Shown piece by piece: positions 5,422-21,841 of a stretch of DNA of 37,125 nucleotides (position 1 is its first letter; every line of letters begins with the position of its first letter). Source of the DNA: a virus. The stretch lies in IMG/VR virus record IMGVR_UViG_3300027985_000690, positions 1 through 37,125 of that record; one strand, written 5' to 3'. A program made the position numbers and the translations under genes. The notes below the pieces were generated by a model that had not been told where the DNA came from, ran no database searches, and worked only from the letters and a program-made list of their open reading frames with translations.

Positions 5422-5883
5422 ATGAGCCAAGCCCGCCCCACGCCTAGGGATCTTCTCACGCTGGATCAGGAAGTCCAGGCAGTCGAGATGCGCAAGGCCG
5501 GATCCAGCTACACCGAGATCGGCGCCGCCCTCGGCTGTTCGTCTGCGACCGCTGCGGCCCGGGTCCGCTCTGCGATCGCTCGGGCTCGTGAGGCCCTGGC
5601 AGAGACGGCAGAGGAGATCGTCTTTCTCGACTGCGCCCGCCTAGACGAAATGCTGGCAGGACTCATGCCAGCCGTCAAGGACGGTGACCCTGCGGCCGTC
5701 CGTGCGGCCCTCGGCGTCATGGAGCGGCGGGCCAAGATGCTCTCGCTTGACGGCGCCCTGCGGGTCCAAGTGTCCGGCGGGCTGGCCGTGCAAGAGCTGA
5801 GCCAAGAGGAGCTTGATGCGCAGATCGCACGATATGCCGCAGTTCTCGCCGCTGGAGCTCATGCGGGAGGCGGCGATTCGTGA
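5422..5883 (+). CDS. terS: Terminase small subunit
   Basis: A 153-residue protein directly upstream of, and overlapping, the large terminase. A helix-turn-helix is visible at about residues 25-55 (SYTEIGAALGCSSATAAARVRSAI), the DNA-recognition part of small terminases. It is followed by helical oligomerisation segments around residues 60-115 and a C-terminal tail likely to contact the large subunit. It would recognise the packaging site and recruit TerL. The start is ATG 5422, without a Shine-Dalgarno but just downstream of a promoter-like sequence. Assignment rests on position plus the helix-turn-helix. Confidence 0.75.
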   Translation: MSQARPTPRDLLTLDQEVQAVEMRKAGSSYTEIGAALGCSSATAAARVRSAIARAREALAETAEEIVFLDCARLDEMLAGLMPAVKDGDPAAVRAALGVMERRAKMLSLDGALRVQVSGGLAVQELSQEELDAQIARYAAVLAAGAHAGGGDS

Positions 5884-7324
5884 GGCTCGGCGCAATCTCC
5901 TAGCCTTCACGCTGTTTACCCACGGCAAGTACCATGCCAACTGGCATCATCGGCTGGTTGCGGACAAGCTCGACGGCGTGATCTCTGGCTCTGTGCCTCG
6001 GCTCATTCTTTGCATGCCGCCCGGCCACGGCAAGACTGAGCTGGCCTCGATCCGGCTCCCGGCCATGGATCTCGGGGTCAACCCTTCGGACCGCATCATC
6101 GCCTGCTCTTGGGGCCAGGGCCTCGCAACGAAGATCTCCCGGCAAGTCAAGCAAGTGCTCCTGGGCGAGCAATATCGCTTGGCTTTCCCTGGAACGTCTC
6201 TCAACCCAAAGCACGTTGCCACGGACGAACGCCAGACGGCGCGCAACACTTCGGACGAATGGGAGATCGTGGGGACCGGCGGCAGTTACCTTGCCCGGGG
6301 CGTTGGCGGCGGCATTGCTGGGCAGCGGTTCGATCTCGGAATCGTTGACGATCCGTTCCGAAACGTAGATGACGCCTACTCGCTGGCGTCTCGTGATCGG
6401 GTCTGGGACTGGTTCAACTCCGACTTTCGGACAAGAACCGTGCCAACTTCTCGGATCGTGCTGATTATGACCCGCTGGCACGACGACGACCTAGTGGCCC
6501 GGCTCTTGCACGAGGCGGCGACGCACCGGGGCGCTGAGCAGTGGGAACTAGTGGAGCTGCGCTGCATCGCAGAAGAGGAGCGCGACGACGACCCCCGCCA
6601 GCCCGGCGAGGTCCTTTGGCCTGAGTTCTTCTCGCTGGACCGTGCGGAGGCCCTGCGCGAGTCGGACCCGGCAACCTTTGCCAGCCTGTATCAGCAGCGC
6701 CCCGCACCGGACGGCGGATATGATTGCCAGCTCTCGTGGCTGGAGCGTGAGTGGGACTCGCTGCCTTCCGTGCCCGGTGAGTGGCGGATCTCTTGGGACC
6801 TGCGCAACGGCGGCAAGGGAAAGAAGACCAGCGAGGCGGTCGGGCTTGTGTTCTTCCGCCCGTACCGTGCGCAGGGCGAGATCTACCTAGTCGACCGAGT
6901 AGCCGGGCGCTGGGAGTATCCCGAAGAGGAGCAAAGGTTTATCGAGCTTTGCCGCCGCTACCCGCAGGCGACGGAGAAACGAGTCGAGAACAAGGCAGAC
7001 GGCCGGGTGCTGATTCCCCGCCTTCGCTCGCTCATCCCCGGGATCGTTGCCTGGGAGCCCGGGGTGGCAGACAAGCGGGCCCGCTTCCGGCGCATCCTGC
7101 CCCTCCTGCGGGCGGGCAACCTGATCCTGCCGTCGCCCCGGGTCGCTCCCTGGGTCCACGCCTACCGCAATGCGCTTGGCACGTTTCCTGCTGGGGCCAC
7201 GGATGACGACGTGGACGCCACAAGCCAGGGCCTGGAAGGGTGGGAGGTCGGACAACCTGGGCGAACGGTGGTAGGCTATGAGCCTATCCGCAGCACGGGC
7301 GGCAGCCTGTCGGGGGTCTGGTAG
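5816..7324 (+). CDS. terL: Terminase large subunit (ATPase/nuclease)
   Basis: A 502-residue DNA-packaging motor. Walker A MPPGHGKTE is at residues 67-75 and the Walker B-like LGIVDDPF lies near residue 175. An MTRWHDDDL segment, typical of phage terminases, is near residue 221. The C-terminal half is the RNase H-like nuclease: ISWDLR supplies the first acid, ENKADG the middle, and DDDVDATSQ the last acids. ATG 5816 is chosen because GAGGAG precedes it, and it overlaps the small-subunit gene by 68 bases; ATG 5834 is an alternative. It cleaves concatemers and translocates DNA through the portal encoded next. The stop shares one base with the portal GTG (TAGTG). Confidence 0.95.
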   Translation: MRRSHDMPQFSPLELMREAAIREARRNLLAFTLFTHGKYHANWHHRLVADKLDGVISGSVPRLILCMPPGHGKTELASIRLPAMDLGVNPSDRIIACSWGQGLATKISRQVKQVLLGEQYRLAFPGTSLNPKHVATDERQTARNTSDEWEIVGTGGSYLARGVGGGIAGQRFDLGIVDDPFRNVDDAYSLASRDRVWDWFNSDFRTRTVPTSRIVLIMTRWHDDDLVARLLHEAATHRGAEQWELVELRCIAEEERDDDPRQPGEVLWPEFFSLDRAEALRESDPATFASLYQQRPAPDGGYDCQLSWLEREWDSLPSVPGEWRISWDLRNGGKGKKTSEAVGLVFFRPYRAQGEIYLVDRVAGRWEYPEEEQRFIELCRRYPQATEKRVENKADGRVLIPRLRSLIPGIVAWEPGVADKRARFRRILPLLRAGNLILPSPRVAPWVHAYRNALGTFPAGATDDDVDATSQGLEGWEVGQPGRTVVGYEPIRSTGGSLSGVW

Positions 7325-9636
7325 TGGCATCATTCCTGCAACGGCTTTTCGGCCGCACTGAGGCCTCCGAGATCGCCCCGCCGCCGGCCGCACCGCTGGA
7401 CGCCGAAGACCGCAAGGCCCTGGCGACCGTAGACTGCGAGGCGGATCGCTCGGACTACACCTACTCCACCAGCGGCGCCGCCCCGACCCCGGCCCGGATC
7501 GCCTCGGCCATTCGGCGGGCAGACGACGGAGAGATCGGCCCGCTGTCCGAGATCGTGAGCCAGATCTTGGAGCGCGACTGGCAGGCGGCGGCGGTCGTCA
7601 ACACCCGCACCCTGGCCGTGCTTGGGCTGCGGCGGGAGGTATCGGACACCGAGGACCCCGAGATCGCTGATGCCGTGCGGGATATGTTGGACGGGCTGGG
7701 TTGGCGTGGCGACCCCGAGGCGCTGGACTTCGGCGGGGTGCTGTCCGCCTTGCTCGGCGCCATCGTCCACCCGCTTTCGGCGTGCGAGATCGTCTGGACC
7801 ATCAACGGCGGGCGGGCAGAGATCGCAGGCGTCTACCACCGGCCGACCAAGAGATTCCGCTACAATACCGGCAACATGGCAAGCGGCGAGCTTGGCGATC
7901 TGCGGCTGGTAAGCCCTGCGGACACGGTTGGGCAGCCCCTCCGTCCGGGCAAGTGGATCGTGCACCGGTCGGCGTCGGGCTACACCATGCGGCACAGAGC
8001 CGGGATCGGGCGGCTCCTGCTGTGGTCGCACCTCTTCAAGACGATCATCTTTCGGGATTGGGTCGTGTATATGGAGGTCTACGGCCAGCCGCTGCGGATC
8101 GGGCGCTACTCTCCGGCCAGCACAACGGCAGACAGGCAGGCTTTGCGCCAGGCCCTCGCCTCGCTTGGCACGGATGCTGCAGCGATCCTGTCGGACCAGA
8201 CAAACATCGAGTTTCAGGAAGCCAACCGGGGCGACAGTGGGGACTCCTACGCTGCCTTTGTGGAATACATCGACCGCCAGATCGCTAGGGCCGTGCTGGG
8301 TCACGAGGGCTCCAGCAGCTCCACTTCGGGCAGGCTGGGCGGCGAGGATGAGGCGGCCGCCGTTCGGCAAGACATTCTGGAGGCCGACGCCGCAGCACTT
8401 GCCGACATTGTGACGCGGCAGTTGATCGCCCCGTTCGTCCGTTTCAACTTCGGCCCGGACGCTGAGATCCCAATGCTCCGGCTCGTGTCGGAGGAGTCCG
8501 AAGACCTGGACAAGTTGGCCGACCGTGTCAAGGTTCTCGCAGTTGACGCCGGCCTGCCGATCCCAGTGGCCTGGGTCTACGATCGCTTCGGGATCCCGGC
8601 CCCCGAGGGTGACGAGCCCGTGCTAGAGCGGCCCCCGTCCGGCGGCGGCGGTGGCATGCCGTTTGCAGAAGCATCGCACGGCCAGGGCTGCTGCGGGCAT
8701 GCCAAGACTGGCACACTGTTTGCCGCAGAGGATGACGACGCACTGGACCTGATCGATCGCCAAGAGGACGCCATGGTGGAGCAGGCGGTCGCCAAGGCGA
8801 GGCCGCTACACCGCGAGGTTGCCCGCCCTTTTGTTGACGGCGTCGAGAGGTCTAGCACATACGGGCAGGCCCTCGACGCGGTGCGGCAGGCGCAGGCGGA
8901 CACCGAGGCGCTAGCGGCGCTCTTGGCGGACGTGCAGATCTCAGCCAACGTCATCGGAGCCGCGCAGGTTCTAGCCGAGACCGGGCTGGGCGAGGCGGCG
9001 GGGACCGTGCGGATCTGGCCGGCGCAGGAGGCGATTGACTGGCTCGCCAAGCGCACGCCTATTGACCATGCGGCCTATCAGGCGCTCAGCTCGGCGCAGA
9101 AGACCCGGGCTTTTTCTCTGGCCAGACACGAGGCCGATGGCGCCCGCCAGGCGGTCTTTGACGCTCTCAACAAGGCACTGGCGGACGGGCAATCTTTCGG
9201 GACTTTCCAGCGTGCTTACCGCGAGATCGCTCGCTCTGAGGAGTTCATGCCCACGTCGTCGGCGCACTTGGAGACGGTCTACCGAAACGGCGTGAGCCGA
9301 GGGCTGAGCGTCGGGAGGCACCAGCAAATGACGACCCCGGCCGTTGTCGCACTGCGGCCCTACTGGCAGTACCGGACGGTTGGGGACGGCTCCGTGAGGC
9401 CGGAACACCAGGAGTTGAATGGCCTGGTCTACCCCGCAGACCACCCGTTCTGGGGCACCTACGGCCCGCCCAACGGGCACCGCTGCCGCTGCCGAATCGT
9501 GACCCTGAGCCAGCGCCAGGTGGACCAGCGGGGCTTGACCGTCCAGACGCAGATTGACGACAGCCTGCCCCGCCCGCCGGAGGGCTGGGACGTAGCGCCC
9601 TGGGTGGACCCAGGCAGCGAGGAGGGCTTGCAATGA
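7324..9636 (+). CDS. Portal protein fused to Mu F-type head morphogenesis domain
   Basis: A 770-residue protein joining two proteins that are separate in phage Mu. Residues 1 to about 430 match a DUF935/Mu gp29-type portal, with the characteristic HEGSSSSTSGRLGGEDEAAAV segment in the clip/wing region. After a Gly-rich linker (PSGGGGGMPF) and a helical stretch, residues from about 580 to the end match the Phage_Mu_F domain. That domain includes RPYWQYRTVGDGSVRPEH, GLVYPADHPFW and GHRCRCRI. The portal forms the ring at the head vertex through which DNA passes; the Mu F-like part is a minor head component needed for assembly. The start GTG 7324 overlaps the terL stop. Confidence 0.9.
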   Translation: MASFLQRLFGRTEASEIAPPPAAPLDAEDRKALATVDCEADRSDYTYSTSGAAPTPARIASAIRRADDGEIGPLSEIVSQILERDWQAAAVVNTRTLAVLGLRREVSDTEDPEIADAVRDMLDGLGWRGDPEALDFGGVLSALLGAIVHPLSACEIVWTINGGRAEIAGVYHRPTKRFRYNTGNMASGELGDLRLVSPADTVGQPLRPGKWIVHRSASGYTMRHRAGIGRLLLWSHLFKTIIFRDWVVYMEVYGQPLRIGRYSPASTTADRQALRQALASLGTDAAAILSDQTNIEFQEANRGDSGDSYAAFVEYIDRQIARAVLGHEGSSSSTSGRLGGEDEAAAVRQDILEADAAALADIVTRQLIAPFVRFNFGPDAEIPMLRLVSEESEDLDKLADRVKVLAVDAGLPIPVAWVYDRFGIPAPEGDEPVLERPPSGGGGGMPFAEASHGQGCCGHAKTGTLFAAEDDDALDLIDRQEDAMVEQAVAKARPLHREVARPFVDGVERSSTYGQALDAVRQAQADTEALAALLADVQISANVIGAAQVLAETGLGEAAGTVRIWPAQEAIDWLAKRTPIDHAAYQALSSAQKTRAFSLARHEADGARQAVFDALNKALADGQSFGTFQRAYREIARSEEFMPTSSAHLETVYRNGVSRGLSVGRHQQMTTPAVVALRPYWQYRTVGDGSVRPEHQELNGLVYPADHPFWGTYGPPNGHRCRCRIVTLSQRQVDQRGLTVQTQIDDSLPRPPEGWDVAPWVDPGSEEGLQ

Positions 9637-10769
9637 GCAGCGATCGTGAGGTGTTGACTGCCAGGGCGACCGCTGGCGTGAGTCTTGCAGACCCCATGCA
9701 GGCTGGTCCGGGCGAGCCCATGCGGCCGACCTTCCGCCTGATCTCGGCGGGGGTTCCGCTGCGGACTTCGCCCCCTATCGTGATCGGGGAGCAGGCGCTA
9801 CGTGAGGCGCTGCCGTTGTTCCAGCCCGGCGTGGACGTGTACGGCATGGCGGACTCCGTGCCCGTGCGCATGGACCACGAGCGGGACTCGGACAAGGTGA
9901 TCGGCCGGATTTCCGCCGCCCGCTGGGTGGAGGCCACCGCCGAGATCCCTGCCGGCATCGAGGGCGATCTCGAGATCGACCCCGTGCTGGGCGCCAAGGT
10001 CATCCGAGCGCTGGAGCTTCGGTACCTCCGTTCGGGCAGCGTCTCGATCGAGTACCAGTACATGGTCGAGTTCACGCCCGATGACGAGGCCGTGATCGTT
10101 GTGACGGGGATCTCCCGTGTTCGTGAGTTCTCTATCGTCGACTCGGGGGCGGACCCATACGCCCGCCGGCTCGACGCGCAGGAGGGTGGGATGAGTGACG
10201 ACGTGCAGGCCGCCGCAGGGGTGGAGGCCAATACCACTGCCGTTGCCGATGAAGTGGCCGCAGTCGAAGACTTGGCAGCGCCGCCGGCCGATGAGTTTTT
10301 GCCGCCCGAGCCCGGCCCTCTGGAGCAACTGGCCGCCGATTTCAACTGCGAGCCCGAGATCGCTGCGGTCGCCGCCAAGGTCGGGCAGGCTTTTGACACG
10401 CTGGAGGTCAGCCTGGCCACCGCTGAGCGCGCCCTGGCAGAGACCAGCGCCAAGCTGGCCGCCGCCGAGGCCCGGGTTGCTGAGCTTGAAGGCAAGATTC
10501 GTGCCGACAAGAAGCGTGCCATGCTGACAGACGCCCTGCGATCTGGTAGCATTGAGCCGTGGGAAATGGAAGGGCTGAGCGAACTCAGCGACGCCGTTCT
10601 TTCGGTGTACCTGGGCAAGCGCAAGCCCCGCTCCGCTGTCCCGCTCGGCGTGGACGCTGCCCCCGTGGCCAGCGATCTCGCCGCTCCTGGGCCCGAGGTG
10701 ACCGAGCACCAGCGCAAGGTGGCTGGCAAGCTTGGCATTGATGAGAAGGTCTTTGTGCGGACGGTCTAA
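9633..10769 (+). CDS. Prohead protease with C-terminal scaffold (Mu gpI-like)
   Basis: A 378-residue protein coupled to the portal gene by ATGA. Residues 1-180 look like a phage prohead protease: VRMDHERDSDKVIGRI holds the likely catalytic His, LRSGSVSIEYQ the likely Ser, and VREFSIVDSGADPYARR closes the domain. From about residue 187 the sequence is acidic and then a long coiled coil (TAERALAETSAKLAAAEARVAEL). It ends in a basic hook with EHQRKVAGKLGIDEKVF, as in Mu-type scaffolds. It would shape the prohead and then digest the scaffold. An internal start at 10191 probably makes the scaffold alone. Confidence 0.85.
   Translation: MSSDREVLTARATAGVSLADPMQAGPGEPMRPTFRLISAGVPLRTSPPIVIGEQALREALPLFQPGVDVYGMADSVPVRMDHERDSDKVIGRISAARWVEATAEIPAGIEGDLEIDPVLGAKVIRALELRYLRSGSVSIEYQYMVEFTPDDEAVIVVTGISRVREFSIVDSGADPYARRLDAQEGGMSDDVQAAAGVEANTTAVADEVAAVEDLAAPPADEFLPPEPGPLEQLAADFNCEPEIAAVAAKVGQAFDTLEVSLATAERALAETSAKLAAAEARVAELEGKIRADKKRAMLTDALRSGSIEPWEMEGLSELSDAVLSVYLGKRKPRSAVPLGVDAAPVASDLAAPGPEVTEHQRKVAGKLGIDEKVFVRTV
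10191..10769 (+). CDS. Nested scaffold protein from an internal start (Mu gpZ-like)
   Basis: An in-frame ATG at 10191, codon 187 of the protease gene, is preceded by GGAGGGTGGG at 10181-10190, one of the best Shine-Dalgarno sequences in the window. It lies exactly at the boundary between the protease domain and the coiled-coil scaffold. Translation from it gives a 192-residue scaffold sharing the C-terminus of the full protein. Phage Mu (I and Z) and lambda (C and Nu3) use this nested protease/scaffold arrangement. Expression from this start is inferred. Confidence 0.65.
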   Translation: MSDDVQAAAGVEANTTAVADEVAAVEDLAAPPADEFLPPEPGPLEQLAADFNCEPEIAAVAAKVGQAFDTLEVSLATAERALAETSAKLAAAEARVAELEGKIRADKKRAMLTDALRSGSIEPWEMEGLSELSDAVLSVYLGKRKPRSAVPLGVDAAPVASDLAAPGPEVTEHQRKVAGKLGIDEKVFVRTV

Positions 10770-10791
10770 CCGCCACCGCTAGGAGGGGAGA

Positions 10792-11748
10792 ATGGCTGCT
10801 GCCACCAGTGATCGTGAGTTTCTCCAGGCGGATGGCATCCGTACCGCGTACGGAATCGCCGCCGCCACCCAGCTCTACAACGGGATCATGGTCGCCAATG
10901 TTGGCGGATATGCCGTTGCAGCTACCGACGCCGTTGGCCGCCCGGTTCTCGGCTTCGTCGACGACGGCGGGGACCTTGACAACAGCGCGGGGCTGGCTGC
11001 TGCGCTGGACGTGCAGGTGGTCCACAACCGGGCGTGCTGGATGGACAACGATACCGTCAACCCGGTAGTCGTTGGCGACGTTGGCAAGTCCTGCTACGTC
11101 GAAGACAACAAGACCGTTCGCACCTTCACGACCGGCACCGCCAACAGCCGGGCCGGCCGCGTGCTGCAACTCGACTCGAGCAAGGGCGTGCTGGTCTACT
11201 TTGACGGCGGCAACGGCGAGGCGGCCGAGGACTTCGAGATCGCTGATGATCTGGTTGTCGGCGACGACGCTGCGATCGGTGGCGACCTGACCGTGACTGG
11301 CGGCGCAGCGCTGGACGGCGGAGCAACTGTCGGCGCCGGCCTGGCGGTCATTGGCGACGGCGATCTGATCGTCGGCGTTGCTGTCGGCGCCTTTGACCTG
11401 ACCATGAAGCTCGGGGATGCCGCCGGTGCGCAGGTCTTCGAGATCGTTGACTCGGCCTCTGCGCAGGTCTTTGAGGTGAACAGCGACGGAGACACCACGA
11501 TCGCTGGCGACCTGACCGTGACCGGCGCTGCTGACATCTCCGGCGGGGCCCAGGTGCCCTACGCCGAGGCGGCCCTCGGTGCGGCCCCCTCCCAGGCCCA
11601 GATGGTCGCCGCATTCGGCGCTGGCGTGGACGGCCAGATCGGCATCTACGAGGACACCACGGGCGGGGCCAAGCAGCCCTACCTCTGTGCCTTCACCACG
11701 GACGGCGGCGGCTGGTGGCAGCTCGCTCTCACGGCGGTCGGCGCCTAG
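10792..11748 (+). CDS. Head decoration/fibre protein
   Basis: A 318-residue protein between scaffold and major capsid, the usual place for a head-stabilising or decoration protein. It starts at ATG 10792 with a strong AGGAGGGGAG. The N-terminal 130 residues resemble a DUF2190/gpD-like small head protein. After residue 145 there are repeated GDLTVTG units (AIGGDLTVTGGA, then TIAGDLTVTGAA) embedded in Gly/Asp-rich sequence, as in trimeric beta-helical fibres. A C-terminal segment (IGIYEDTTGG...WWQLALT) follows. A decoration base carrying a short fibre is a reasonable reading; the exact role is inferred. Confidence 0.65.
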   Translation: MAAATSDREFLQADGIRTAYGIAAATQLYNGIMVANVGGYAVAATDAVGRPVLGFVDDGGDLDNSAGLAAALDVQVVHNRACWMDNDTVNPVVVGDVGKSCYVEDNKTVRTFTTGTANSRAGRVLQLDSSKGVLVYFDGGNGEAAEDFEIADDLVVGDDAAIGGDLTVTGGAALDGGATVGAGLAVIGDGDLIVGVAVGAFDLTMKLGDAAGAQVFEIVDSASAQVFEVNSDGDTTIAGDLTVTGAADISGGAQVPYAEAALGAAPSQAQMVAAFGAGVDGQIGIYEDTTGGAKQPYLCAFTTDGGGWWQLALTAVGA

Positions 11749-11763
11749 CATCTAGGACCATGA

Positions 11764-11791
11764 GCCCGGGGCTGTACTGACGGCCCCGGGC
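11764..11791 (+). promoter_or_regulatory. Perfect hairpin just upstream of the major capsid gene
   Basis: Arms GCCCGGGGC (11764-11772) and GCCCCGGGC (11783-11791) form a perfect 9-bp GC stem with a 10-base loop. It ends immediately before the Shine-Dalgarno AGGAG of the capsid gene (ATG 11805). With no T-run it is more likely an mRNA-stabilising or processing structure than a terminator. Confidence 0.65.
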
Positions 11792-11804
11792 AGGAGAACA
11801 AAAG

Positions 11805-12713
11805 ATGAGCATTTCCAACGCCGAGAAGCTCCGTGACGCCGCCGTTGGCTTTCAAGAGCTCTTCCGGGAGCGCTTCTCTGCGCTGATCGGGTCCTCGCTG
11901 TCCGAAATGGCGTGCATGCGTGCGAACAGCGCTGGCTCTGAAGAGGTCTACGCCTGGCTTGCCGAACTGCCCGCCGTGAAGGAGTGGGTTGATGAGCGGC
12001 AGGTCGCCAACATGCGGGCCGAGGGCTACACCCTCCGCAACCTCAAGTGGGAGTCCACGATCTCCGTCGGCGCCGATGAGATCGAAGACGACAAGCTGGA
12101 TATCATCAAGCCCCGCGTGAGCAACCTGGCCGAGCAGGCGGCTGCGCACTACGACCGGCTGATGACTCAGCGCCTTGTCGCTGGCTTCACCGATCTCTGC
12201 TACGACGGGCAAGCCCTGATCTCCGCTGCCCACCCCCGTGCGGACGGTGGCGCTGCGCAGTCCAACACCCTTGGAGCGGTAGACCTGACCGCTGCCAATT
12301 TCAACACGGCGTGGTCGCGCATGGCCTCGTTTGTGGACGATCACGGGCAGCCTCTGGGCATCGTGCCCACGCACCTCATGTATGGCCCCGCCAAGCGGGC
12401 GCAGGCCATGTCGATCCTGGTCGCCAACGACGTGAGCGACGGCACCACGACCGTCAGCAACATCAACCGGGGCGTGGTCCAGGGAATCATGAATCCCTAT
12501 ATCACTGGCAATTCCTGGTACTTGATGTCGCTCGATCGCTCGGTCAAGCCTTTGATCCTCCAGGTGCGCCAGTCGCCCGAGTTTGTGGCCATGGATGACC
12601 CGACTCGTTCGGATGAGGCGTTCATGCGGGATCGCTACCTCTACGGCGTGAAGGCTCGCCACAACGTCGGCTATGGCATGTGGCAGCTCATCGTCGGCAG
12701 TTCCGGGGCGTAG
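11805..12713 (+). CDS. Major capsid protein, Mu gpT-like
   Basis: A 302-residue protein matching the Mu-like major head subunit family in length and sequence pattern. Diagnostic segments are EMACMRANSAGSEEVYAWL, LPAVKEWVDERQV, LRNLKWESTISVGADEIEDD and a C-terminal RHNVGYGMWQLI. It forms the icosahedral shell and adopts the HK97 fold. The gene sits after the protease/scaffold and decoration genes, with AGGAG before ATG 11805. It is flanked by strong hairpins on both sides (11764-11791 and 12721-12798), which fits high, separately controlled expression. Confidence 0.92.
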   Translation: MSISNAEKLRDAAVGFQELFRERFSALIGSSLSEMACMRANSAGSEEVYAWLAELPAVKEWVDERQVANMRAEGYTLRNLKWESTISVGADEIEDDKLDIIKPRVSNLAEQAAAHYDRLMTQRLVAGFTDLCYDGQALISAAHPRADGGAAQSNTLGAVDLTAANFNTAWSRMASFVDDHGQPLGIVPTHLMYGPAKRAQAMSILVANDVSDGTTTVSNINRGVVQGIMNPYITGNSWYLMSLDRSVKPLILQVRQSPEFVAMDDPTRSDEAFMRDRYLYGVKARHNVGYGMWQLIVGSSGA

Positions 12714-12720
12714 TCCAAGC

Positions 12721-12748
12721 GGGGGCCCTGCCTAGCGGTGGGGCCCCC
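12721..12748 (+). terminator. Strong GC hairpin after the capsid gene
   Basis: GGGGGCCC (12721-12728) pairs perfectly with GGGCCCCC (12741-12748) around a 12-base loop, 8 bases after the capsid stop. Only TTCT follows, so it would be a weak intrinsic terminator, possibly partial, or a 3' stabilising structure for the capsid mRNA. Confidence 0.6.
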
Positions 12749-12755
12749 TTCTGCG

Positions 12756-12798
12756 CCTGAGCTTGGCTCAGGATGGCCCCTGGCTGTGACCTGGGGCC
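12756..12798 (+). terminator. Two further tandem hairpins in the capsid-connector gap
   Basis: CCTGAGC-TTG-GCTCAGG at 12756-12772 is a perfect 7-bp stem with a 3-base loop. GGCCCC at 12775-12780 pairs with GGGGCC at 12793-12798. With the hairpin at 12721 they make three successive structures in a 170-base gap. The remaining bases to 12883 hold only the Shine-Dalgarno GAGGAGG of the next gene and no gene. Confidence 0.5.
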
Positions 12799-12883
12799 TC
12801 TGACCCCGCCTAGTGGGCGTCTCGGGCAAGCTGCCCGGGTGGCGGTGCGATTCCGTCCGGGGTGTCCAAAGAGGAGGTGCGGC

Positions 12884-13321
12884 ATGGCGGCGCGCTACAT
12901 CGACCCGGCCGATCTCCTGTCGGTCCTGCCCGACTACCTGCGGTTGCAGCTACTCGACGACAACCGGGACGGCACGGAAGAAGCCGGCCTGGCCAGCAAG
13001 ATCGTGAGCGATGCGGCCGATGAAGTCGACATGTATTTTGCCGCCGCAGGCTACACGGTCCCGATCGTGTCGCCGCCGCCGGCAGCTACCGTCCTGACTC
13101 AGCGTGTCGCCAGGTATATCGCTCACTTTCGGCTGAGCACCGTGACCCCCGAGATCGCAGAGCAGTACCGGATTGACCGGGAAATGCTGACTGCGATCGC
13201 CACCCGCCGGATCTCCGTGGGATCCACGCCGCTGCCGCCCGAGGCCGAGGAAACGGCGGGCGCCGCAGAGTTCGTTGGGCCAACCCGCACGTTCTCTCGC
13301 ACGACGCTGGTAGGCTTCTAG
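12884..13321 (+). CDS. Head-tail connector protein, Mu gp36-like (DUF1320)
   Basis: A 145-residue protein of the DUF1320/Mu gp36 type: MAARYIDPADLLSVLP at the N-terminus, a helical core with DEVDMYFAAAGYTVP, then VLTQRVARYIAHFRL. It would sit below the portal and join the head to the neck. ATG 12884 follows GAGGAGG. It is the first gene after the capsid hairpins, so its transcription depends on read-through or on a start in that gap. The C-terminal FVGPTRTFSRTTLVGF is typical of the family. Confidence 0.8.
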   Translation: MAARYIDPADLLSVLPDYLRLQLLDDNRDGTEEAGLASKIVSDAADEVDMYFAAAGYTVPIVSPPPAATVLTQRVARYIAHFRLSTVTPEIAEQYRIDREMLTAIATRRISVGSTPLPPEAEETAGAAEFVGPTRTFSRTTLVGF

Positions 13322-13322
13322 C

Positions 13323-13820
13323 ATGGCCGGCGCCGGGCTCAATGTGGCCGTGGACTCAGAAGAGGTACAGCGCCACCTGCGCGGGATCGCTAGGAGAATG
13401 CGGAGCATGGAGCCGGCAATGGCCGTGGTGGAGGAAGTCCTGGCGACGGCCGTAGATGACAATTTCCAGGAGCAGGGCCAAAGGGGCGGGCGGCAGCAGT
13501 GGGCAGATCTCAAGGATGAGACGTGGGAGCGCAGGCGCGAGGGCCGGGGCCGAGGGCAGGGCAAGATCCTCACGGACACCGGCGCCCTATCCCGGTCCGC
13601 TCAGGCCGGGCGCAGGCACGACAGGCGCAGCGCTGAGGTCGGCACGGATCTTGAATATGCCGCAACGCACCAGTTTGGGGACCCCAGGCGCAACATCCCC
13701 GCCCGGCCGTTCCTGTTCGTGACAGACGAAGACGTGCAAGAGATCGCAGACACCATCGCCGACTACATCGACTTGGGCAAGCGGGGCATGCTCGCTGCGC
13801 AAAAGTCAAGGGTTACTTGA
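13323..13820 (+). CDS. Virion morphogenesis/tail completion protein, Mu gpG-like
   Basis: A 165-residue protein of the phage virion morphogenesis (Phage_tail_S, Mu gpG) family. Supporting segments are ILTDTGALSRS, then VGTDLEYAATHQFG and NIPARPFLFVTDED, the conserved core of the family. It acts at the head-tail junction or in tail completion. The start is ATG 13323, one base after the upstream TAG. Its stop shares a base with the next ATG (TGATG), indicating coupling. Confidence 0.85.
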   Translation: MAGAGLNVAVDSEEVQRHLRGIARRMRSMEPAMAVVEEVLATAVDDNFQEQGQRGGRQQWADLKDETWERRREGRGRGQGKILTDTGALSRSAQAGRRHDRRSAEVGTDLEYAATHQFGDPRRNIPARPFLFVTDEDVQEIADTIADYIDLGKRGMLAAQKSRVT

Positions 13821-14320
13821 TGAGCATCCAAGCGATCCACGCTGCCGTTGCCGCCGTTGTCGCTGGCGTCGTCGGCGCCCCCCGGGTCCACACTGGCGCC
13901 AGAGTGCTGCGAGACGCTGGCACGTTCAAGTCCTTGTTCTGGGACACTTCGCTGCGCACGGGCAGGGTGCACGGCTGGGTTGTTGACTCGGACGGCGTCC
14001 CGGTCGAGTCCGCGATCGGAACGTCCAGCACCGGCGTTGCCTTGCGATCGCATAGCGTGACGGTCACCGGCTACTATCAGGTTGACGACGCCCAGACCGG
14101 AACCACGGGCACGACGACGACGGAGCTTTGGGCGCTCACTGACTCGATCTGCGCAGCCTTGCGGACGGCGATCCACACGTCTAGCCCGCTTGGCGGCGCC
14201 GTCATGAACGCCAGCCTTCCGACCGTTCGCCTCTTCGGACGGGAGGTCGTGCATGGTGTAGACTGCCATACAGTGATCATCGATCTCGCAGCGATCGAGC
14301 GGGTGCGCATCACCCCCTAG
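13820..14320 (+). CDS. Probable tail terminator/neck protein
   Basis: A 166-residue protein between the completion protein and the tail tube, where Mu-like phages encode gp37-type (DUF1834-like) or tail-terminator proteins. Features are an N-terminal helix (AIHAAVAAVVAGVVG), a VHGWVVDSDG strand region, a VTVTGYYQVDDAQTGTTGTTTTE region and a helical TDSICAALRTAI. It probably forms the ring capping the tail tube. The family assignment rests mainly on position and fold pattern. Confidence 0.6.
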   Translation: MSIQAIHAAVAAVVAGVVGAPRVHTGARVLRDAGTFKSLFWDTSLRTGRVHGWVVDSDGVPVESAIGTSSTGVALRSHSVTVTGYYQVDDAQTGTTGTTTTELWALTDSICAALRTAIHTSSPLGGAVMNASLPTVRLFGREVVHGVDCHTVIIDLAAIERVRITP

Positions 14321-14329
14321 GAGGTAGAC

Positions 14330-15388
14330 GTGGGAGCCGTCCAGATTGACCAGATCCAGGTAGTCCAGGCGACCACTGAGGCCGTCTATGGCACGATTCC
14401 TGCTCTTGCCGCCACGGATGCGCACATCTGTTTTGACGTGGAGGTCGGGCAGCAGTCGGAGCTGATCAGCAAGCGCGTTCGCAGCAACCTCGCCGCTCCC
14501 ATGCGGGCTGGGGTCGTTGGCGAACGGAGCCAGACGCTTGCGCTGAGCCAGCACATCCGGGGCTATGGCGGCGGCGCCATGGACGCCAATACCAAGTATC
14601 CGGCCTACCATGCTTTTTTGCAGGCGTGCGGGTTTGTCGCCAGTTGGAACGCAGGCACCTGGACCTACAAGCCAGCCGACCGCTATTCGTCCAGCCCGAG
14701 CCTTGGCGCTCACGTGTACATGCACGACACCCGGTACCAGATCCCGGGCGCCCGTGGCAACGCCGTCATCACTGTTGTGCCTGGGCAGCCGGCCGTGATC
14801 GCCTATAACTTCATGGGCTTGGCCAGCGACCCGACCGACCAGAGCGGAGCGATCCCGGCGCCCGACTACGACACCGGCACCACGGGCTACATCGACATGG
14901 CGCCCCCGATCTGCAACGGCGTCACGCTGGCGTTTGACCCCTACGGCGACGCGCCTGCGGCCGACGAAGGCGGGCATATCGAGTCGGTCACGATCGATCT
15001 CCGAAACATCGTGAGCATGGGCAAGAGTTCCACGATCGGATCCTACGGCGTCGGGGCGGTGCGCATTCTGGCCCGTGGCAGCGGCGACGACAACGGCGCC
15101 ATTTGCACGATCGAAGTGGAGGCCCCGGACCCGGCTAGCGCTGGCGGCGTGGTTGGCTTCTGGGATCGCTACTACGCCCAAGAGATCGACTACACGGCCG
15201 CCGATCTCTCTCTGGTCGTCGGAACCGGCGCAGGCAACGTGACAACGATCCAACTCGGCGGCGTCTACATCCGCAGCATGACCCCCACCGTGCTGGACGG
15301 CGGGCGGCGTGGCTACACGGTGGAGCTTGGGATCCTGCGCACCGCTACGGCCACCACCGAAGACGACATCGTGATCACTTGCGTCTAG
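14330..15388 (+). CDS. Tail tube (major tail) protein
   Basis: A 352-residue protein starting at GTG 14330 with AGGAGGT upstream. The N-terminus VQATTEAVYGTIPALAATDAH is typical of tail tube proteins of this size class, and the C-terminal third (WDRYYAQEIDYTAADLSL through RRGYTVELGI) reads as beta-sandwich sequence. It lies directly before the overlapping chaperone genes and tape measure, the standard order in siphoviruses. It would polymerise into the inner tube around the tape measure. Confidence 0.75.
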   Translation: MGAVQIDQIQVVQATTEAVYGTIPALAATDAHICFDVEVGQQSELISKRVRSNLAAPMRAGVVGERSQTLALSQHIRGYGGGAMDANTKYPAYHAFLQACGFVASWNAGTWTYKPADRYSSSPSLGAHVYMHDTRYQIPGARGNAVITVVPGQPAVIAYNFMGLASDPTDQSGAIPAPDYDTGTTGYIDMAPPICNGVTLAFDPYGDAPAADEGGHIESVTIDLRNIVSMGKSSTIGSYGVGAVRILARGSGDDNGAICTIEVEAPDPASAGGVVGFWDRYYAQEIDYTAADLSLVVGTGAGNVTTIQLGGVYIRSMTPTVLDGGRRGYTVELGILRTATATTEDDIVITCV

Positions 15389-15399
15389 GAGTCGACACT

Positions 15400-15807
15400 A
15401 TGGGCGATCTGTACGTCACCAACAAGCGATGGACCCTTGAAATCCCGGAGGCCCCCGGGCTGCGCTTTGTGCTGCGTCCGCCCTCCGCTGGAGCCATGGC
15501 CGAGGCCCTGTCTGCCAGCGCTCGCAAAGTCGTTGGCGAAGACGGGCGCGAACGGTCCGAGCTTGACGGGGCGCAGTACAACTTCCGCATTGTGGCCCCT
15601 GCGATTGTGGACGTGGAGGGCCTGGGCGAGGAAGACGACTCTGGCGAGATCGTGCCGATCGTCTGGCGCGAGTTGGACGCCGGGCAGCGCCTCGACGCCG
15701 TGCGGCGGCTGAGCCCGTGGCTCTGGACCCGCCTCCACGCCGCCGTGTCTGAGCGCACCGAGCTGTCCCCGGAGGGTGTCTCTCTCTGCGCTCAGGATGG
15801 CCGCTGA
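15400..15807 (+). CDS. Tail assembly chaperone, short form (lambda gpG-like)
   Basis: A 135-residue protein between the tail tube and the tape measure. This is the position of the tail assembly chaperone, which binds the tape measure during tail building. ATG 15400 follows TAGGAG. The sequence (KRWTLEIPEAPGLRFVLRPP, then WRELDAGQRLDAVRRLSPWLW) fits a small alpha/beta chaperone but shows no diagnostic motif. Its last 31 bases overlap the next reading frame and contain a TCTCTCTCT tract suited to -2 frameshifting, so a fraction of ribosomes may make a longer fusion. Confidence 0.7.
   Translation: MGDLYVTNKRWTLEIPEAPGLRFVLRPPSAGAMAEALSASARKVVGEDGRERSELDGAQYNFRIVAPAIVDVEGLGEEDDSGEIVPIVWRELDAGQRLDAVRRLSPWLWTRLHAAVSERTELSPEGVSLCAQDGR
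15779..15787 (+). other. Candidate -2 ribosomal frameshift site
   Basis: The tract TCTCTCTCT is read in the chaperone frame as GTC TCT CTC TGC. Shifting TCT (15781) and CTC (15784) back by two bases places both tRNAs on identical codons (TCT at 15779, CTC at 15782), so re-pairing is perfect. Translation then continues at 15785 in the frame of the next gene to its stop at 16189, giving a fusion of about 263 residues. Use of the site is inferred. Confidence 0.55.
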
Positions 15808-16189
15808 GCTAGTCGCAGACGACTCCGGCACCTACGACTGCGCCGGCTGCTCAGAGTACATACAGAGGCGCCGGGGCTGCTCCAGGCATGGGTGGCCCCG
15901 GCCCCGCACTCCGTCCGGGCAGATCGTCGGCGGCAGCGGCCAAGTGGAGTTCTTTCACGACTGCGTTGCAAACCTCGTGCCACCGTGGGCGCTGAGCTAC
16001 GCACGGGCCTACCAGTGGCACCGGAGCGGCGGCCAGTTTTTGCCGGGCTCGCCTAGCACTTGGCCGGCGATCTACGCCCAAGCGCTGGGTGTGCTATCCT
16101 CTGCTGTGGCCGAGATCGAGGACCGGCGGCGACGGAAGGCGTCGAAAGGCGGTGACGGCCAGACGGGCAAGCGGACGTTTGGGAGGTAG
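15797..16189 (+). CDS. Tail assembly chaperone extension (GT-like second part)
   Basis: A 130-residue frame from ATG 15797; GTG 15776 is also in frame. It is in the -2/+1 frame relative to the preceding gene and overlaps its end. It contains CAGC...C near the start, perhaps a zinc site, then WALSYARAYQWHRSGGQF and a basic tail. In many siphoviruses and in Mu the second part is made only as an extension by frameshifting. The weak ribosome binding site here, with AGG touching the ATG, supports that. It could also be translated alone. Confidence 0.65.
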   Translation: MAAELVADDSGTYDCAGCSEYIQRRRGCSRHGWPRPRTPSGQIVGGSGQVEFFHDCVANLVPPWALSYARAYQWHRSGGQFLPGSPSTWPAIYAQALGVLSSAVAEIEDRRRRKASKGGDGQTGKRTFGR

Positions 16190-16191
16190 CG

Positions 16192-18579
16192 GTGCCGGAC
16201 AGCGTAGTCAAGATCGCCGTTACCGCAGAGGACGCTGCCAGCCCCAAACTGGACGCAGTTGCCAAATCCGTCCAAAAGGTGGACGAAGCGTCAGCCAAAG
16301 GCGCAAAGTCTACCGAGGCGCTTGGCAAGAGCTTTGCAGCAACAAGCAAGTATGCGAGCTTGCTTGGAAGCGGCGTAAAGCTGCTTGCCGCCAACATTGG
16401 CCCCACCGCTCTGGTAGGCGCATTCACCGCCGCTGTCAAGTCTGCAATTGATCTAGGCCGGGCAATGTCCCGGGTGTCTACGCTGATCCCTGGACAATCT
16501 GCGCTGCTCGAACGGCTTGGAGACAGCGCACGCAGGCTGTCGCAGGCCTACGCACTGGCCGCCACGGACGTTGCAGCCGGCACGTTTCAGGCGATCTCCG
16601 CTGGCGTCTCTGCGGGCGAGGCTGCCCGGTTCATGGAGACCGCAGCGCAGTCGGCCACCGCTGGCTTTGCCACCATGGAGGAGACCGTTAGCGGGCTCAC
16701 CACGGTGCTTAATGCCTACGGGCTGCGCACGACGGAGGCGGCAAAGGTTAGCGACGCGTTCTTTGCGGCCAACAAGCTCGGCGTCACTACGTCCAGAGAG
16801 TTGGGGGCCTCGCTCGGGCAGGTTGTCGGCGTGGCCGCCTCGCTCAATGTCGGCTATGAGGAGTTGCTGTCCGCTACCGTTGCATTGACCAAGGGCGGGA
16901 TCTCGACCGCCGAAAGCATGACCGGCCTGCGGGCAATCCTGGCGTCCGTGCTTTCGCCCGCCGAAGATGCGCAGGTAGCGGCCCGTGAGCTTGGGATCAC
17001 TTGGGATGCCACAGTCGCAAAGACCGAGGGCCTAACCGGCATCATTGACCGTTTGCGCATTGCTCAGGAGCGCGGCGGCGAGGAAATGGTCGCGCGCCTA
17101 GTGCCCCGTGTCGAGGCGCTAAGCAAGGCGTTTGTGCTGATCTCCGAGACCGGCGGGCGGGATTTTGCCGCCACGCTTGACGAGATCACGAAGAAGTCGG
17201 GACAGACGGCCGAGGCGCTGGCAGAAGTCGAGAAGTCCGCCAGTTTCCGCTTTGACCGGGCACTGGCCAGGATCAAGACTGGCGCCACCGAGCTTGGCAG
17301 CGTCACCTTGCCCGCCCTTGCAGTAGCGGCGGACTTCGCTGGCCAGACCACAAAGCAGTGGGCAGAGGGGCTGAATGTCCTAGACATTTCGAGCCGCTCG
17401 GCATACGAAAACTTCATCATTCTCAATCGCCAGTTTACGCCGCTAGGCGCCACCGTCTCGGCGTTGATGAACGGCTATGAGTCGCTGACCGGGCGCACGA
17501 TAGACCTGTCCACGTCCACCGAGCAACTGCGCGAACAAACGCAAGCGCTGGGCGACACGCTGGGCAGCCTGTTTGGCCGTGGCGTTGCCGCCGCGGCAAG
17601 CGGGCTGCAAGAACTGGCGGCCAGGCACGACGAGATCCTTGGGCGCAAGGGGCAACTGGGAGAAGAAGCCAAGCGATCCGCCGATGCCATGAACGTCATG
17701 GCGGCGTCTGCGACGGCTTCGGCCGCCGCAATGGAGCGCCTGCGACGCGAGCGGGACCTGGCGATCGGGCAGCAACTCCAGCTCATTGACCTGGAAATGG
17801 AGGGCCTGGCGCAGGAGCAAGCGGGCGCCGCAGGCTTCACGCCGACCGGGGCTGGCGTCGCACCAGAACCCGCCCCGGATCTTGGCGCAATTGGCGGGCT
17901 CGGCGAGGCCGTCAAGGGGTCGTTTGACGCCAACGCCGCGCCGGAAAGCACGTTCGGAAGCCTGGTTGAAGATGCACTGTCGCTTGTCGGAATCTCGTTT
18001 GACGGCTACATCGGCCAGATCAACGAGGCGGAAAAGGCAAATCAGGAGTTCGCTGAGTCGCTGCGTGAGATCGGGTTCGCAATGTCGGACGTTGCGGGAC
18101 CGTTTGCTAGCGCCATGGTCACGGCCATTGAGTCCGTTGTGGACGGCGAGCAGTCGTTTGCTAGTGCCATGGCCGGCATGGCCCGGTCTTTCCTGCGTTC
18201 GATCGGCTCTCAGGCAACGGCCAAGGCGGCGTATGCGTTTGCCGAGGGCCTGTTCCTCTTGTCCCAGAAGCGCTACGATGATGCCGGCCTGGCGTTCCTG
18301 AGCGCAACAAAGTTTGGCCTTGTCGCAGGCGCAAGCTACGCGGCAAGCACGGCGTTTGCAGGCGGTGGCGGCGGCGGCGGCCGTCGAGTCTCCGCAGCGG
18401 ACGGCGGCTCCCGCTCCGTCGCCCAGCCTGCAGCCCAGGCCAGCCAGCAGGCCACCCAGCCCGTGACGGAAGTGTTCAATATCACCGTGCAGGGCTCGCT
18501 GGTGCGGGAGCGCGACCTAGGCCGCTACGTCGATGAGGCCACCCGAGACGCCCGCCGCAGTGGCGCGAGCAGGAGCTAG
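16192..18579 (+). CDS. Tail tape measure protein
   Basis: A 795-residue protein, one of the two longest structural genes. GTG 16192 follows GGAGG. The TP901-type tape-measure core lies around residues 100-330, with ETAAQSATAGFATMEETVSG, a VTTSRELGASLGQVVGVAAS stretch and TKGGISTAESMTGLRAILAS. Hydrophobic segments lie near residues 55-85 and again after 690. A Gly-rich stretch precedes the C-terminus. It fixes tail length and passes into the host envelope on injection. At about 1.5 angstrom per residue, 795 residues predict a tail near 120 nm. Confidence 0.93.
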   Translation: MPDSVVKIAVTAEDAASPKLDAVAKSVQKVDEASAKGAKSTEALGKSFAATSKYASLLGSGVKLLAANIGPTALVGAFTAAVKSAIDLGRAMSRVSTLIPGQSALLERLGDSARRLSQAYALAATDVAAGTFQAISAGVSAGEAARFMETAAQSATAGFATMEETVSGLTTVLNAYGLRTTEAAKVSDAFFAANKLGVTTSRELGASLGQVVGVAASLNVGYEELLSATVALTKGGISTAESMTGLRAILASVLSPAEDAQVAARELGITWDATVAKTEGLTGIIDRLRIAQERGGEEMVARLVPRVEALSKAFVLISETGGRDFAATLDEITKKSGQTAEALAEVEKSASFRFDRALARIKTGATELGSVTLPALAVAADFAGQTTKQWAEGLNVLDISSRSAYENFIILNRQFTPLGATVSALMNGYESLTGRTIDLSTSTEQLREQTQALGDTLGSLFGRGVAAAASGLQELAARHDEILGRKGQLGEEAKRSADAMNVMAASATASAAAMERLRRERDLAIGQQLQLIDLEMEGLAQEQAGAAGFTPTGAGVAPEPAPDLGAIGGLGEAVKGSFDANAAPESTFGSLVEDALSLVGISFDGYIGQINEAEKANQEFAESLREIGFAMSDVAGPFASAMVTAIESVVDGEQSFASAMAGMARSFLRSIGSQATAKAAYAFAEGLFLLSQKRYDDAGLAFLSATKFGLVAGASYAASTAFAGGGGGGGRRVSAADGGSRSVAQPAAQASQQATQPVTEVFNITVQGSLVRERDLGRYVDEATRDARRSGASRS

Positions 18580-18580
18580 C

Positions 18581-19393
18581 ATGCCGGCCGGCACCATCCC
18601 GTTTCTCGCCTGGCAGATTGTGATTGAAACCGGGGTCAACGACGACCTTGTGTTTGACGAAAACGGCGGTCTGCTTGGGCCATGGACCTGCACGATCCCG
18701 CCCGGGACCTACTACTGGGGCGTGAATGCCGGCGACGGCGAGTTTAGCGCAGCCGTCGAAACTGCCATCAATCTGATCATTGGCCCGACGAACAACTACC
18801 TGTTCACGCCAAACCTGTTGACTGGCGCGTTGGATTTCCAGGCCGACGGCGGCGGGGTCAACAGCCGGCTCTTGTTCGGCTCGGCTGGCACGACCCTTGA
18901 CCCGGCGGTCCTTGGATGCAACGCTGCAACGAAAACGCTAGTCGGCGGGCCTGTTTACACGGCCACGAGCGACTTTCAGATCGGCCGGGCATGGTTTCCT
19001 GAGCAGATCTATGTTGACGACTCCGAGGATCTGCCGGTCTACACGTCAAGCCAGCGGACGATCATGGACGGGTCTACCGTCACGGCGCTCTGGGGCGAGT
19101 ACCGGACCCGCGAGATCACGATCGACGTTCTGCCGGCCAACAAGGTCTTCTCGGGCGACGAACGGGCAGGGCACGCGCAAGAGGCGTGGCTGGCGCAGGT
19201 TGCTGGGCAAGAGCGGCCGAGCGCATGGATTGCCACGGGCGAGACCTTTGCTTTCGTCCCTGACTACTCCGTGCCCACAACCTACGGCCTGTACAAGCCC
19301 ATGGGCCGGGACTGGATCTCGACCCAGCCGTTTGCGACCTCCGTGCCCGGCCTGAGGCGCTACGATCTCTCAATCCCCATGGTGCTTGTCTAG
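18581..19393 (+). CDS. Distal tail protein (minor tail)
   Basis: A 270-residue protein directly after the tape measure, where distal tail (Dit-like) or minor tail proteins are encoded. ATG 18581 follows AGGAG. The sequence is beta-rich with aromatic clusters (GPWTCTIPPGTYYWG, IGRAWFPEQIY) and ends RRYDLSIPMVLV. No catalytic motif is seen. It probably forms part of the ring that joins the tube to the tip hub. Family not recognised beyond position. Confidence 0.55.
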   Translation: MPAGTIPFLAWQIVIETGVNDDLVFDENGGLLGPWTCTIPPGTYYWGVNAGDGEFSAAVETAINLIIGPTNNYLFTPNLLTGALDFQADGGGVNSRLLFGSAGTTLDPAVLGCNAATKTLVGGPVYTATSDFQIGRAWFPEQIYVDDSEDLPVYTSSQRTIMDGSTVTALWGEYRTREITIDVLPANKVFSGDERAGHAQEAWLAQVAGQERPSAWIATGETFAFVPDYSVPTTYGLYKPMGRDWISTQPFATSVPGLRRYDLSIPMVLV

Positions 19394-19405
19394 CCCGGAG
19401 GCCCC

Positions 19406-21841
19406 ATGCCCAGCACCTATACCGCCGAGCTGGCCCGCAAGGCAAGCGGCTGGATTCTGTATGCCACCGTGGAGGGCTGGGGGCGCCGTGTAGGGGCCGT
19501 TGGGTCTGCCCTGCAAGGAGCGTACCGGCTAGCCACGCGAGACCCTTACAGCCTCGGCTGCACGGCGATAGAGGCAGATCCATACCTGCCGTGCTTGGAC
19601 TCGCCCGGCTATGTGCTGGACGAATCGATCGACGTTCGCGAAGGCAAGACTTCGTCGGGAACGCTGGCCCTGCATGCAGCGGATATGCCAGTGCGGGAGC
19701 GGGGCCTGGCAGCGCACGGATGGGGCGACGGGACGATCACGGATCTCATTGCGATCTCTGGCCCGGCGCACGCCTCGCACGCTGCGACCGGGGGCGTCTG
19801 GAAGCTGGCAGCGGACCTTAGCGCCGTCGCTGTGTCCATGACCCTGGTGTCTACGGCCGGGCTGGCGGCTGGCGATGCGCTCTGGATTGGGTCGGAGGTT
19901 GTCGTCGTGACGGGTTTTGGCGGCCCCGGGGCTGTATCTATTGCCCGGGCCTGCCACGGCACCACGGCCACGGCGCACCGGACGGCGGCAAACGGTGGCG
20001 AGGGCTTTCTGTACGACCGCCCCAAGCACCTGCGATCTCGGGCCGTCTCGCTCTACGCAGCGCTGCGGGACAGCACGACCGGCGAGCTACAGGACCCCGC
20101 CCAGCATCGCCTACTCTGGACCGGCCGGGTGGATGACTGGCGGCTGTCCCAGGATGGGCTGGTCTACGAGATCGCTTGCTCTGGCTCGCTTGGCTACCTG
20201 GACCGGACGATCGGCCGGGGGCAAGTCAGGGGCAAGGTGGCACGAACCTTGCTTGAAGGCGTAAGCCAGACGGATCAGCAGTGGTTCTTTGACCTTGCAC
20301 GGCCGGCGGACCCTGCGGGGACCCTGGGCTCTGGCGTGCCTGACTACCCCTCGGGCGAGTTCTACGCCCGCTTGGGTGACCGGGTCGTTCGTTGCCGTGC
20401 GATCTCGGACGTGACCGGCCTAGCGGCCCGCTTCGTTGTCGAGGCATGGGGCTTGCTGGGCACGGACGCCACCCCGCCAGATTCGAGCGAGACCTTCTGC
20501 GACGTGGTGCTCTCGCACCCCTCGCCCGGCGACGACTCCCCGATCCAACTGTTCACCACGCCAGCCGGCAATCCCGCGACTCATCCGCTTGACCTGTTGC
20601 TGACGATGATCACTAGCACCGGGGCCTATCACGGAGCCGGCGCAAACGGTGACGCAGACAGCCTGCCCGCTGACTGGGGCCTGGGGCGGCTGGTCTCGAC
20701 GATCGACCTGGAGAGCTTCAATCGCCTGCGGTCTCGGCATCTTCCGCTGAGCTACTCTCGGGCCGTGCTGGGCTGGGACGGCAAGGGCGTGCGGGTGCGT
20801 GAGTGGGCAGAAGAGGAGGTCTTCGGGCCGCTGTCCTGGTTCTTCGTGCCCAGTTCGGACGGTCGCCTTGCGGTGGGCGAGATCCGCGACCTGTACCCGC
20901 TGGACAGCCCGGGCACGATCACGACTGCGGACATTGTGATTGACGGCGGCCTGCCCGCCATTCAGGTAGGCGGTGATCTGGGATCCACAACGACGTGGAG
21001 CACCTGGCGCATGGGCTACCTGCCCGGCGACGACGACGATCCGGCCCTCACGATCCGCTATCGGTCGCAGGAAGTGGCCGAGCGAATGCCTCAGGATGAC
21101 AGCGAGATCGCCTGGGACATGACCGCCGTTGACCCGGGCAGTGCGCTGGGCACGATCCATGCCATCGCCGTTTCGACCGCTGAGCGCCGGGCCTTCCCGC
21201 TGCCCGCCGTGACCGTGACCGTGGGCTTGCACAAGGCCGAGCTTGTCTTGACTTCGCCCGTGCTGGTGACGCTGCCCATGGTGCCCAACCCGCTCACTGG
21301 CGAGCGAGGCTTGACCCGAGCCCCGGCCGCAGTGATCGGGCGGGCGATCGACTTTGACGCCGGGACAATCACGCTCCGTTTGCTCCTGCTGCGCGAGTAC
21401 GATACCGGGCACTGGGCGCCCTCGCTGGAGGTCGTGTCCGCAGTCGGCTCGCCCCCTACGATCGACGTGGCGCAGAGCTCCTACAGCAACGCTGCACTCG
21501 GCGGCGGGCTCCCCACGCTAGACGTGGACGCCTTCGCAGTGGGCGATCTGGTCATGCTCGTTGACCAGGACGGGGCGCCGCTCTGTGACAACGCCGTTGC
21601 GATTACTGCCGTCAACTACGTTGGGCCGCCGACGGACTCGATCAACATCTTTGCAGACTTCACGCTGTTGGGGGCCCCTGTTTTGCCCTCCGCAGGAGAT
21701 CGGATTGTGTACGCCCACTGGAACACCGGCGGCACGCCCTCGGCCGTCTGGACTGCTACCATGCAAGAGTCCGTGGCCCAGGCTGACGAGACCACCCAGG
21801 CGCTGCCCGACGGGTCGGCGCCCTACGTCTACGGGGGCTGA
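19406..21841 (+). CDS. Large tail-tip/baseplate hub protein
   Basis: An 811-residue protein, the longest in the window. ATG 19406 follows GGAGG. The N-terminal 100 residues (YTAELARKASGWILYATVEG, then DSPGYVLDESIDVREGKTS) and the long beta-rich body fit a tail hub or central tip protein. A segment near residues 130-205 (VSMTLVSTAGLAAGDALWIG) resembles the small beta domain common in phage tip proteins. The last 60 residues are likely a tip or fibre-attachment region. It follows the distal tail gene and precedes smaller tip components. Function inferred from size and position. Confidence 0.6.
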   Translation: MPSTYTAELARKASGWILYATVEGWGRRVGAVGSALQGAYRLATRDPYSLGCTAIEADPYLPCLDSPGYVLDESIDVREGKTSSGTLALHAADMPVRERGLAAHGWGDGTITDLIAISGPAHASHAATGGVWKLAADLSAVAVSMTLVSTAGLAAGDALWIGSEVVVVTGFGGPGAVSIARACHGTTATAHRTAANGGEGFLYDRPKHLRSRAVSLYAALRDSTTGELQDPAQHRLLWTGRVDDWRLSQDGLVYEIACSGSLGYLDRTIGRGQVRGKVARTLLEGVSQTDQQWFFDLARPADPAGTLGSGVPDYPSGEFYARLGDRVVRCRAISDVTGLAARFVVEAWGLLGTDATPPDSSETFCDVVLSHPSPGDDSPIQLFTTPAGNPATHPLDLLLTMITSTGAYHGAGANGDADSLPADWGLGRLVSTIDLESFNRLRSRHLPLSYSRAVLGWDGKGVRVREWAEEEVFGPLSWFFVPSSDGRLAVGEIRDLYPLDSPGTITTADIVIDGGLPAIQVGGDLGSTTTWSTWRMGYLPGDDDDPALTIRYRSQEVAERMPQDDSEIAWDMTAVDPGSALGTIHAIAVSTAERRAFPLPAVTVTVGLHKAELVLTSPVLVTLPMVPNPLTGERGLTRAPAAVIGRAIDFDAGTITLRLLLLREYDTGHWAPSLEVVSAVGSPPTIDVAQSSYSNAALGGGLPTLDVDAFAVGDLVMLVDQDGAPLCDNAVAITAVNYVGPPTDSINIFADFTLLGAPVLPSAGDRIVYAHWNTGGTPSAVWTATMQESVAQADETTQALPDGSAPYVYGG

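Follow-up and report, generated by a model that had tools for sequence, protein, structure and literature searches.

A TC-repeat tract as a candidate -2 frameshift site in the overlap of two putative tail chaperone genes of an uncultured virus

Very few systems are documented as using programmed -2 frameshifting, and phage Mu is the sole phage named in a review. Among tail assembly chaperones, Mu is the reported case of -2 shifting (PMC5009743, PMC4378225, PMC2628397), so that the literature supports the precedent given in a first-pass annotation of the locus described here. In lambda G/GT and similar siphophage pairs, a short first frame and a longer fused product are obtained from overlapping genes by a -1 shift on an X_XXY_YYZ heptamer. 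The +1 frame is reached in the Listeria phages PSA, A118 and A500 (CCC_UGA) and in influenza PA-X, where a P-site CCC or UUU re-pairs one base forward.

The window analyzed in this work is an entire virus record of 37,125 bases, a single uncultured virus contig, in which two overlapping reading frames, ORF1 and ORF2, sit between the genes for the major tail protein and the tape measure protein (Table 1). The locus shares with lambda G/GT and similar siphophage pairs the gene order, the overlap, and the combination of a short first frame with a longer potential fused product. The major tail protein is distantly similar (26-28%) to a JP1 protein annotated as tail tube protein and to the proteins found at the same position in S-CBS1 and S-LBS1, and 41% to its counterpart in the collinear contig L122. 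ORF1 has a weak family match to the PHROG tail assembly chaperone phrog_344 (E=0.079), and no family was matched by ORF2. Single-sequence structure models of ORF1 and ORF2 were of low confidence (pLDDT 44 and 50, respectively), too poor for a fold search.

Table 1. Coordinates of the tail genes and of the sequence elements around the ORF1/ORF2 overlap in the window (SD, Shine-Dalgarno pairing energy).
Feature	Position	Strand	SD (kcal/mol)	Remarks
Major tail (tube) protein gene	14330..15388	+	-11.6	GTG start
ORF1, G-like tail assembly chaperone (putative)	15400..15807	+	-6.8	135 aa; position before tape measure gene
ORF2 open frame, T-like region (putative)	15713..16189	+		no usable SD; would be read from 15785 after a -2 shift
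GGAGGG, internal Shine-Dalgarno-like	15771..15776	+		5' of tract
TCTCTCTCT tract, candidate -2 slip site	15779..15787	+		inside ORF1/ORF2 overlap
Zero-frame codons TCT CTC	15781..15786	+		identical re-pairing at 15779-15784
6-bp hairpin GCUCAG/CUGAGC, 8-nt loop	15790..15809 (15790-15795/15804-15809)	+		starts 2 nt after tract
ATG in ORF2 frame	15797..15799	+	-1.9	overlaps ORF1 stop region; possible reinitiation start
Tape measure protein gene	16192..18579	+	-11.6	GTG start; PF10145, 2.8e-30; PHROG tape measure, 3e-47

A codon model trained on the other genes of the same phage assigned ORF1 a coding score of +62 across its 135 codons. ORF2, which is open in the shifted frame across the end of ORF1, scored +19 versus -41 and -40 in the other two frames, and was therefore counted as genuinely coding. 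Its frame is +1, equivalently -2, relative to that of ORF1, the third frame being closed, and the favoured coding frame switches between the segments 15730-15789 and 15766-15825, around the tract TCTCTCTCT.

From the tract on, the zero-frame codons of ORF1 are GTC TCT CTC TGC GCT CAG GAT GGC CGC TGA. When moved two bases back, both TCT (15781-83) and CTC (15784-86) land on identical codons. A -2 shift at this place would join 129 residues of ORF1 to 134 of ORF2, giving a 263-aa product with the junction GVSL-SALRM. The first-pass annotation had located the tract in the overlap of the two chaperone frames, had taken the second frame to be exactly the -2/+1 frame, and had claimed perfect two-site re-pairing and a predicted fusion of about 263 residues running from VSL into SALRM; all of these claims were borne out. 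The predicted tryptic junction peptides are TELSPEGVSLSALR for a -2 shift at the tract and TELSPEGVSLALR for a +1 shift at the tract, the former having one extra residue at the junction (VSLSALR versus VSLALR).

The chance expectation of the tract was assessed at several levels. The 9-mer occurs in two copies in the window versus 0.29 expected from dinucleotide shuffles, and the second copy (15205-15213), within the major tail gene, is out of the tandem -2 register. A -2 shift at this second copy would add just 10 residues before a stop. Across the 6148 codon positions in the genes of this phage, an in-register -2 tandem octamer is found at 15781 and nowhere else. Synonymous-codon resampling of the overlap produced such an octamer in 1.0% of trials (P=0.010), a value whose true significance is weaker because the motif class was picked after the sequence was seen, so that the evidence is moderate. 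Chance also produces in-register CG-repeat octamers: a few GC-rich gene pairs of the -1 type elsewhere have them.

The overlap contains no X_XXY_YYZ heptamer, and the second gene is not in the -1 frame; the locus thus differs from lambda G/GT in both the slip sequence and the direction of the shift. It shares the frame reached with the Listeria phages and PA-X but differs from them in having, within the overlap, no P-site codon able to re-pair one base forward (UUU_C or CCC_N) and no in-frame homopolymer +1 site. The best +1 re-pairings in the overlap keep two of three bases identical, whereas the -2 re-pairing keeps all six over two codons. Since neither a heptamer nor a +1-suited codon is found in the overlap, the TC tract offers the best opportunity for slipping there, and in the right direction.

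As read from Mu's own record, the second frame of gp41 is in the same +1/-2 relation and lies before the tape measure gene, and the slip in Mu likewise relies on a codon that meets an identical one when moved two bases back (GGG on GGGGG). The slip sequences differ, as the run of five G in Mu allows one codon to re-pair identically, whereas the TC repeat of the window involves two adjacent codons, and no Mu-like G-run slip sequence is present in the overlap of the window. A phmmer --max search with ORF1 and ORF2 against the ORFs of Mu (L012) gave no significant match. The head genes of the window resemble those of Mu (PF06074, PF04233); in contrast, the tail of Mu is contractile, whereas the tape measure and major tail proteins of the window resemble siphophage proteins. 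The label "Mu-type" used in the first-pass annotation is therefore unsupported as a statement of kinship, given that ORF1 and ORF2 do not resemble gp41, the tail is siphophage-like and Mu slips on GGGGG. The putative chaperone pair may nevertheless work like that of Mu.

Several other features of the record were observed in passing. The virion module (5813-21841) is mosaic, combining Mu-like portal, MuF and neck genes with the siphophage-like major tail protein and tape measure. A single 770-aa ORF (7324-9636) combines a portal domain (PF06074) with a Mu F-like domain (PF04233); this fusion is apparently common to the collinear contig (L122:3-1193), whereas Mu and related phages have separate genes. 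A 21-bp tandem repeat at 4938-5037 (4.8 copies, 94% matches) encodes a repeated REYEHLR within a probable DNA methyltransferase ORF (4285-5370).

Homologs of ORF1 and ORF2 were found neither in viral contigs, phages, plasmids and the fetched loci nor in the ~1150 bacterial genomes sampled. Viral contigs were searched with ORF1, ORF2, and the major tail, tape measure, MuF and capsid proteins, and genome contigs also with the tape measure; tblastn was applied to phages and plasmids, and HMM and protein searches to the bacterial genomes. These searches recovered a single collinear contig (L122) and otherwise only distant tail relatives; L122 is the nearest and ends inside the major tail protein gene, before the ORF1/ORF2 position. 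Mu-like portals, when aligned, proved too diverse to serve as a query. Weak ORF2 matches in genomes (L195, L198) were rejected as relatives, being read as host rather than phage genes.

For comparison, we collected ~110 loci with related tape measures. Frame counts were restricted to non-redundant pairs whose two parts both had coding support, because automatic calls include spurious pairs in GC-rich loci, and some whole-genome loci on the opposite strand were left out of them. The -1 relation was observed in 57 pairs, and 46 of these have a standard heptamer within the overlap, which validates the approach, since it recovers the shift sites of tail chaperones at the places expected. Where the gene pair of a distant tail relative could be read (S-LBS1, S-CBS1, L140, L143, L152, L156 and L157), it is also in the -1 relation. 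The +1/-2 relation was observed in six other loci, of which five have TTT_CGN and one has GGG_C; none has an in-register dinucleotide tract, and a wider scan agreed for the tract. In-frame TTT_CGN thus occurs in nearly all the other +1/-2 chaperone pairs, within the ORF2-open stretch, at L021:5084, L023:4889, L025:5090, L045:2020, L047:5301 and L115:5145 (and in L027); it stands at the very start of this stretch in L045, L047 and L115, the last of which reads TCC_TTT_CGA. This motif resembles the +1 shift motif of influenza PA-X and may mark a +1 site that recurs among the tail chaperones of phages.

We next consider how ORF2 could be translated in other ways. The most serious competitor, although in our judgment an unlikely one, is that ORF2 is a separate gene reached by reinitiation: ribosomes terminating at TGA (15805-15807) would begin again at ATG 15797, with GGAGGG possibly retaining them, and the tract would be incidental. 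The short distance of this ATG from the ORF1 stop (8 nt upstream) suits such a restart, but no Shine-Dalgarno sequence is found at a working distance from it, its pairing being essentially nil compared with ORF1, the major tail gene and the tape measure gene (Table 1). The other potential start, GTG 15776, abuts GGAGG with zero spacing. ORF2 therefore has no independent ribosome-binding site; other genes of the phage are also without a clear Shine-Dalgarno sequence under the assumed starts and appear weakly led, which counts in favour of reinitiation. It has been proposed that a Shine-Dalgarno sequence just before a gene end keeps ribosomes in place for a coupled restart (PMC5009743), and in some phages (R5C, Me-ZS1) the second chaperone is annotated as its own gene. 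Against this, the overlap is the usual G/GT architecture, in which most of the related -1 pairs counted above carry a slip heptamer, and under reinitiation a perfect in-register tract in the right direction would be a coincidence.

The second competitor, a +1 instead of a -2 shift, for example at TCC_C (15766) or aided by GGAGGG within the tract, would reach the same frame through a different junction, and we consider it quite improbable. In its favour is the spacing of 4 nt between GGAGGG and TCT, close to the reported +1 value of 3 nt, compared with 9-14 nt for -1/backward shifts (PMC5009743). TTT_CGN, a sequence suited to +1 shifting, is found in several related +1/-2 pairs, but the overlap of the window offers no in-frame homopolymer codon, and a +1 move there preserves less pairing than the -2 move, as described above. 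GGAGGG itself, which occurs about once per 2.1 kb here, could be a shift stimulator, an aid to coupled restart, or simply a pair of Glu-Gly codons. A third possibility, that an indel in the record or real variation in repeat length separates what one more TC unit would make a single in-frame gene, is very improbable: the record consists of one contig from an uncultured virus, and the length of a dinucleotide repeat can vary, but tail chaperone loci normally have two overlapping frames and a repeat of 4.5 units is short for slippage.

The most likely arrangement is thus a frameshift-fused chaperone pair, with ORF1 and ORF2 as the putative G and T parts of one tail assembly chaperone. A -2 slip on TCTCTCTCT is the likeliest mechanism, ahead of reinitiation at ATG 15797 and then of a +1 shift, and we hold it with middling confidence. 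Most ribosomes would complete ORF1, whereas in a minority the peptidyl-tRNA on TCT or CTC would slip two bases back onto identical codons; the slipped ribosomes would read on in ORF2 and produce the GT fusion with VSL joined to SALRM. If the roles follow those in lambda, the tape measure protein would be bound by the G part, and the T part would bring in the tail tube subunit. We infer the shift itself, its -2 direction at the tract, its rate and these chaperone functions from the observed gene order, overlap, frame, coding of both parts, re-pairing geometry and lack of an independent ribosome-binding site.

Several observations count for the -2 slip, namely the location, the frame switch, the lack of a Shine-Dalgarno sequence for ORF2, the sole octamer, the lack of an alternative site and the Mu precedent. 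Counted against it are the lack of ORF1/ORF2 homologs in the collections searched, the shuffle-level folding of the downstream RNA, the 4-nt Shine-Dalgarno spacing, the tract-less +1/-2 pairs and the other genes with weak Shine-Dalgarno sequences. With respect to RNA structure, the region downstream of the tract folds no better than its shuffles, and an Rfam search gave no match. In an HIV cassette, -2 shifting gained on -1 shifting when the spacer was shortened (PMC5009743), which is only suggestive for the window.

More tentatively, and on balance somewhat short of even confidence, the pyrimidine dinucleotide repeat (UCUCUCUCU) may be a site dedicated to -2 slipping, with perfect re-pairing of two neighbouring tRNAs, in a tail chaperone unrelated to that of Mu. 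Phage tail genes would then have come to use -2 shifting independently for a second time, with a new class of slip sequence. If this is true, the shift direction at a conserved regulatory step would be shown to be free to change, and the locus would serve as a minimal cassette with which bacterial -2 slippage could be measured. Fusions of this kind would escape gene callers whose only known slip motif is X_XXY_YYZ.
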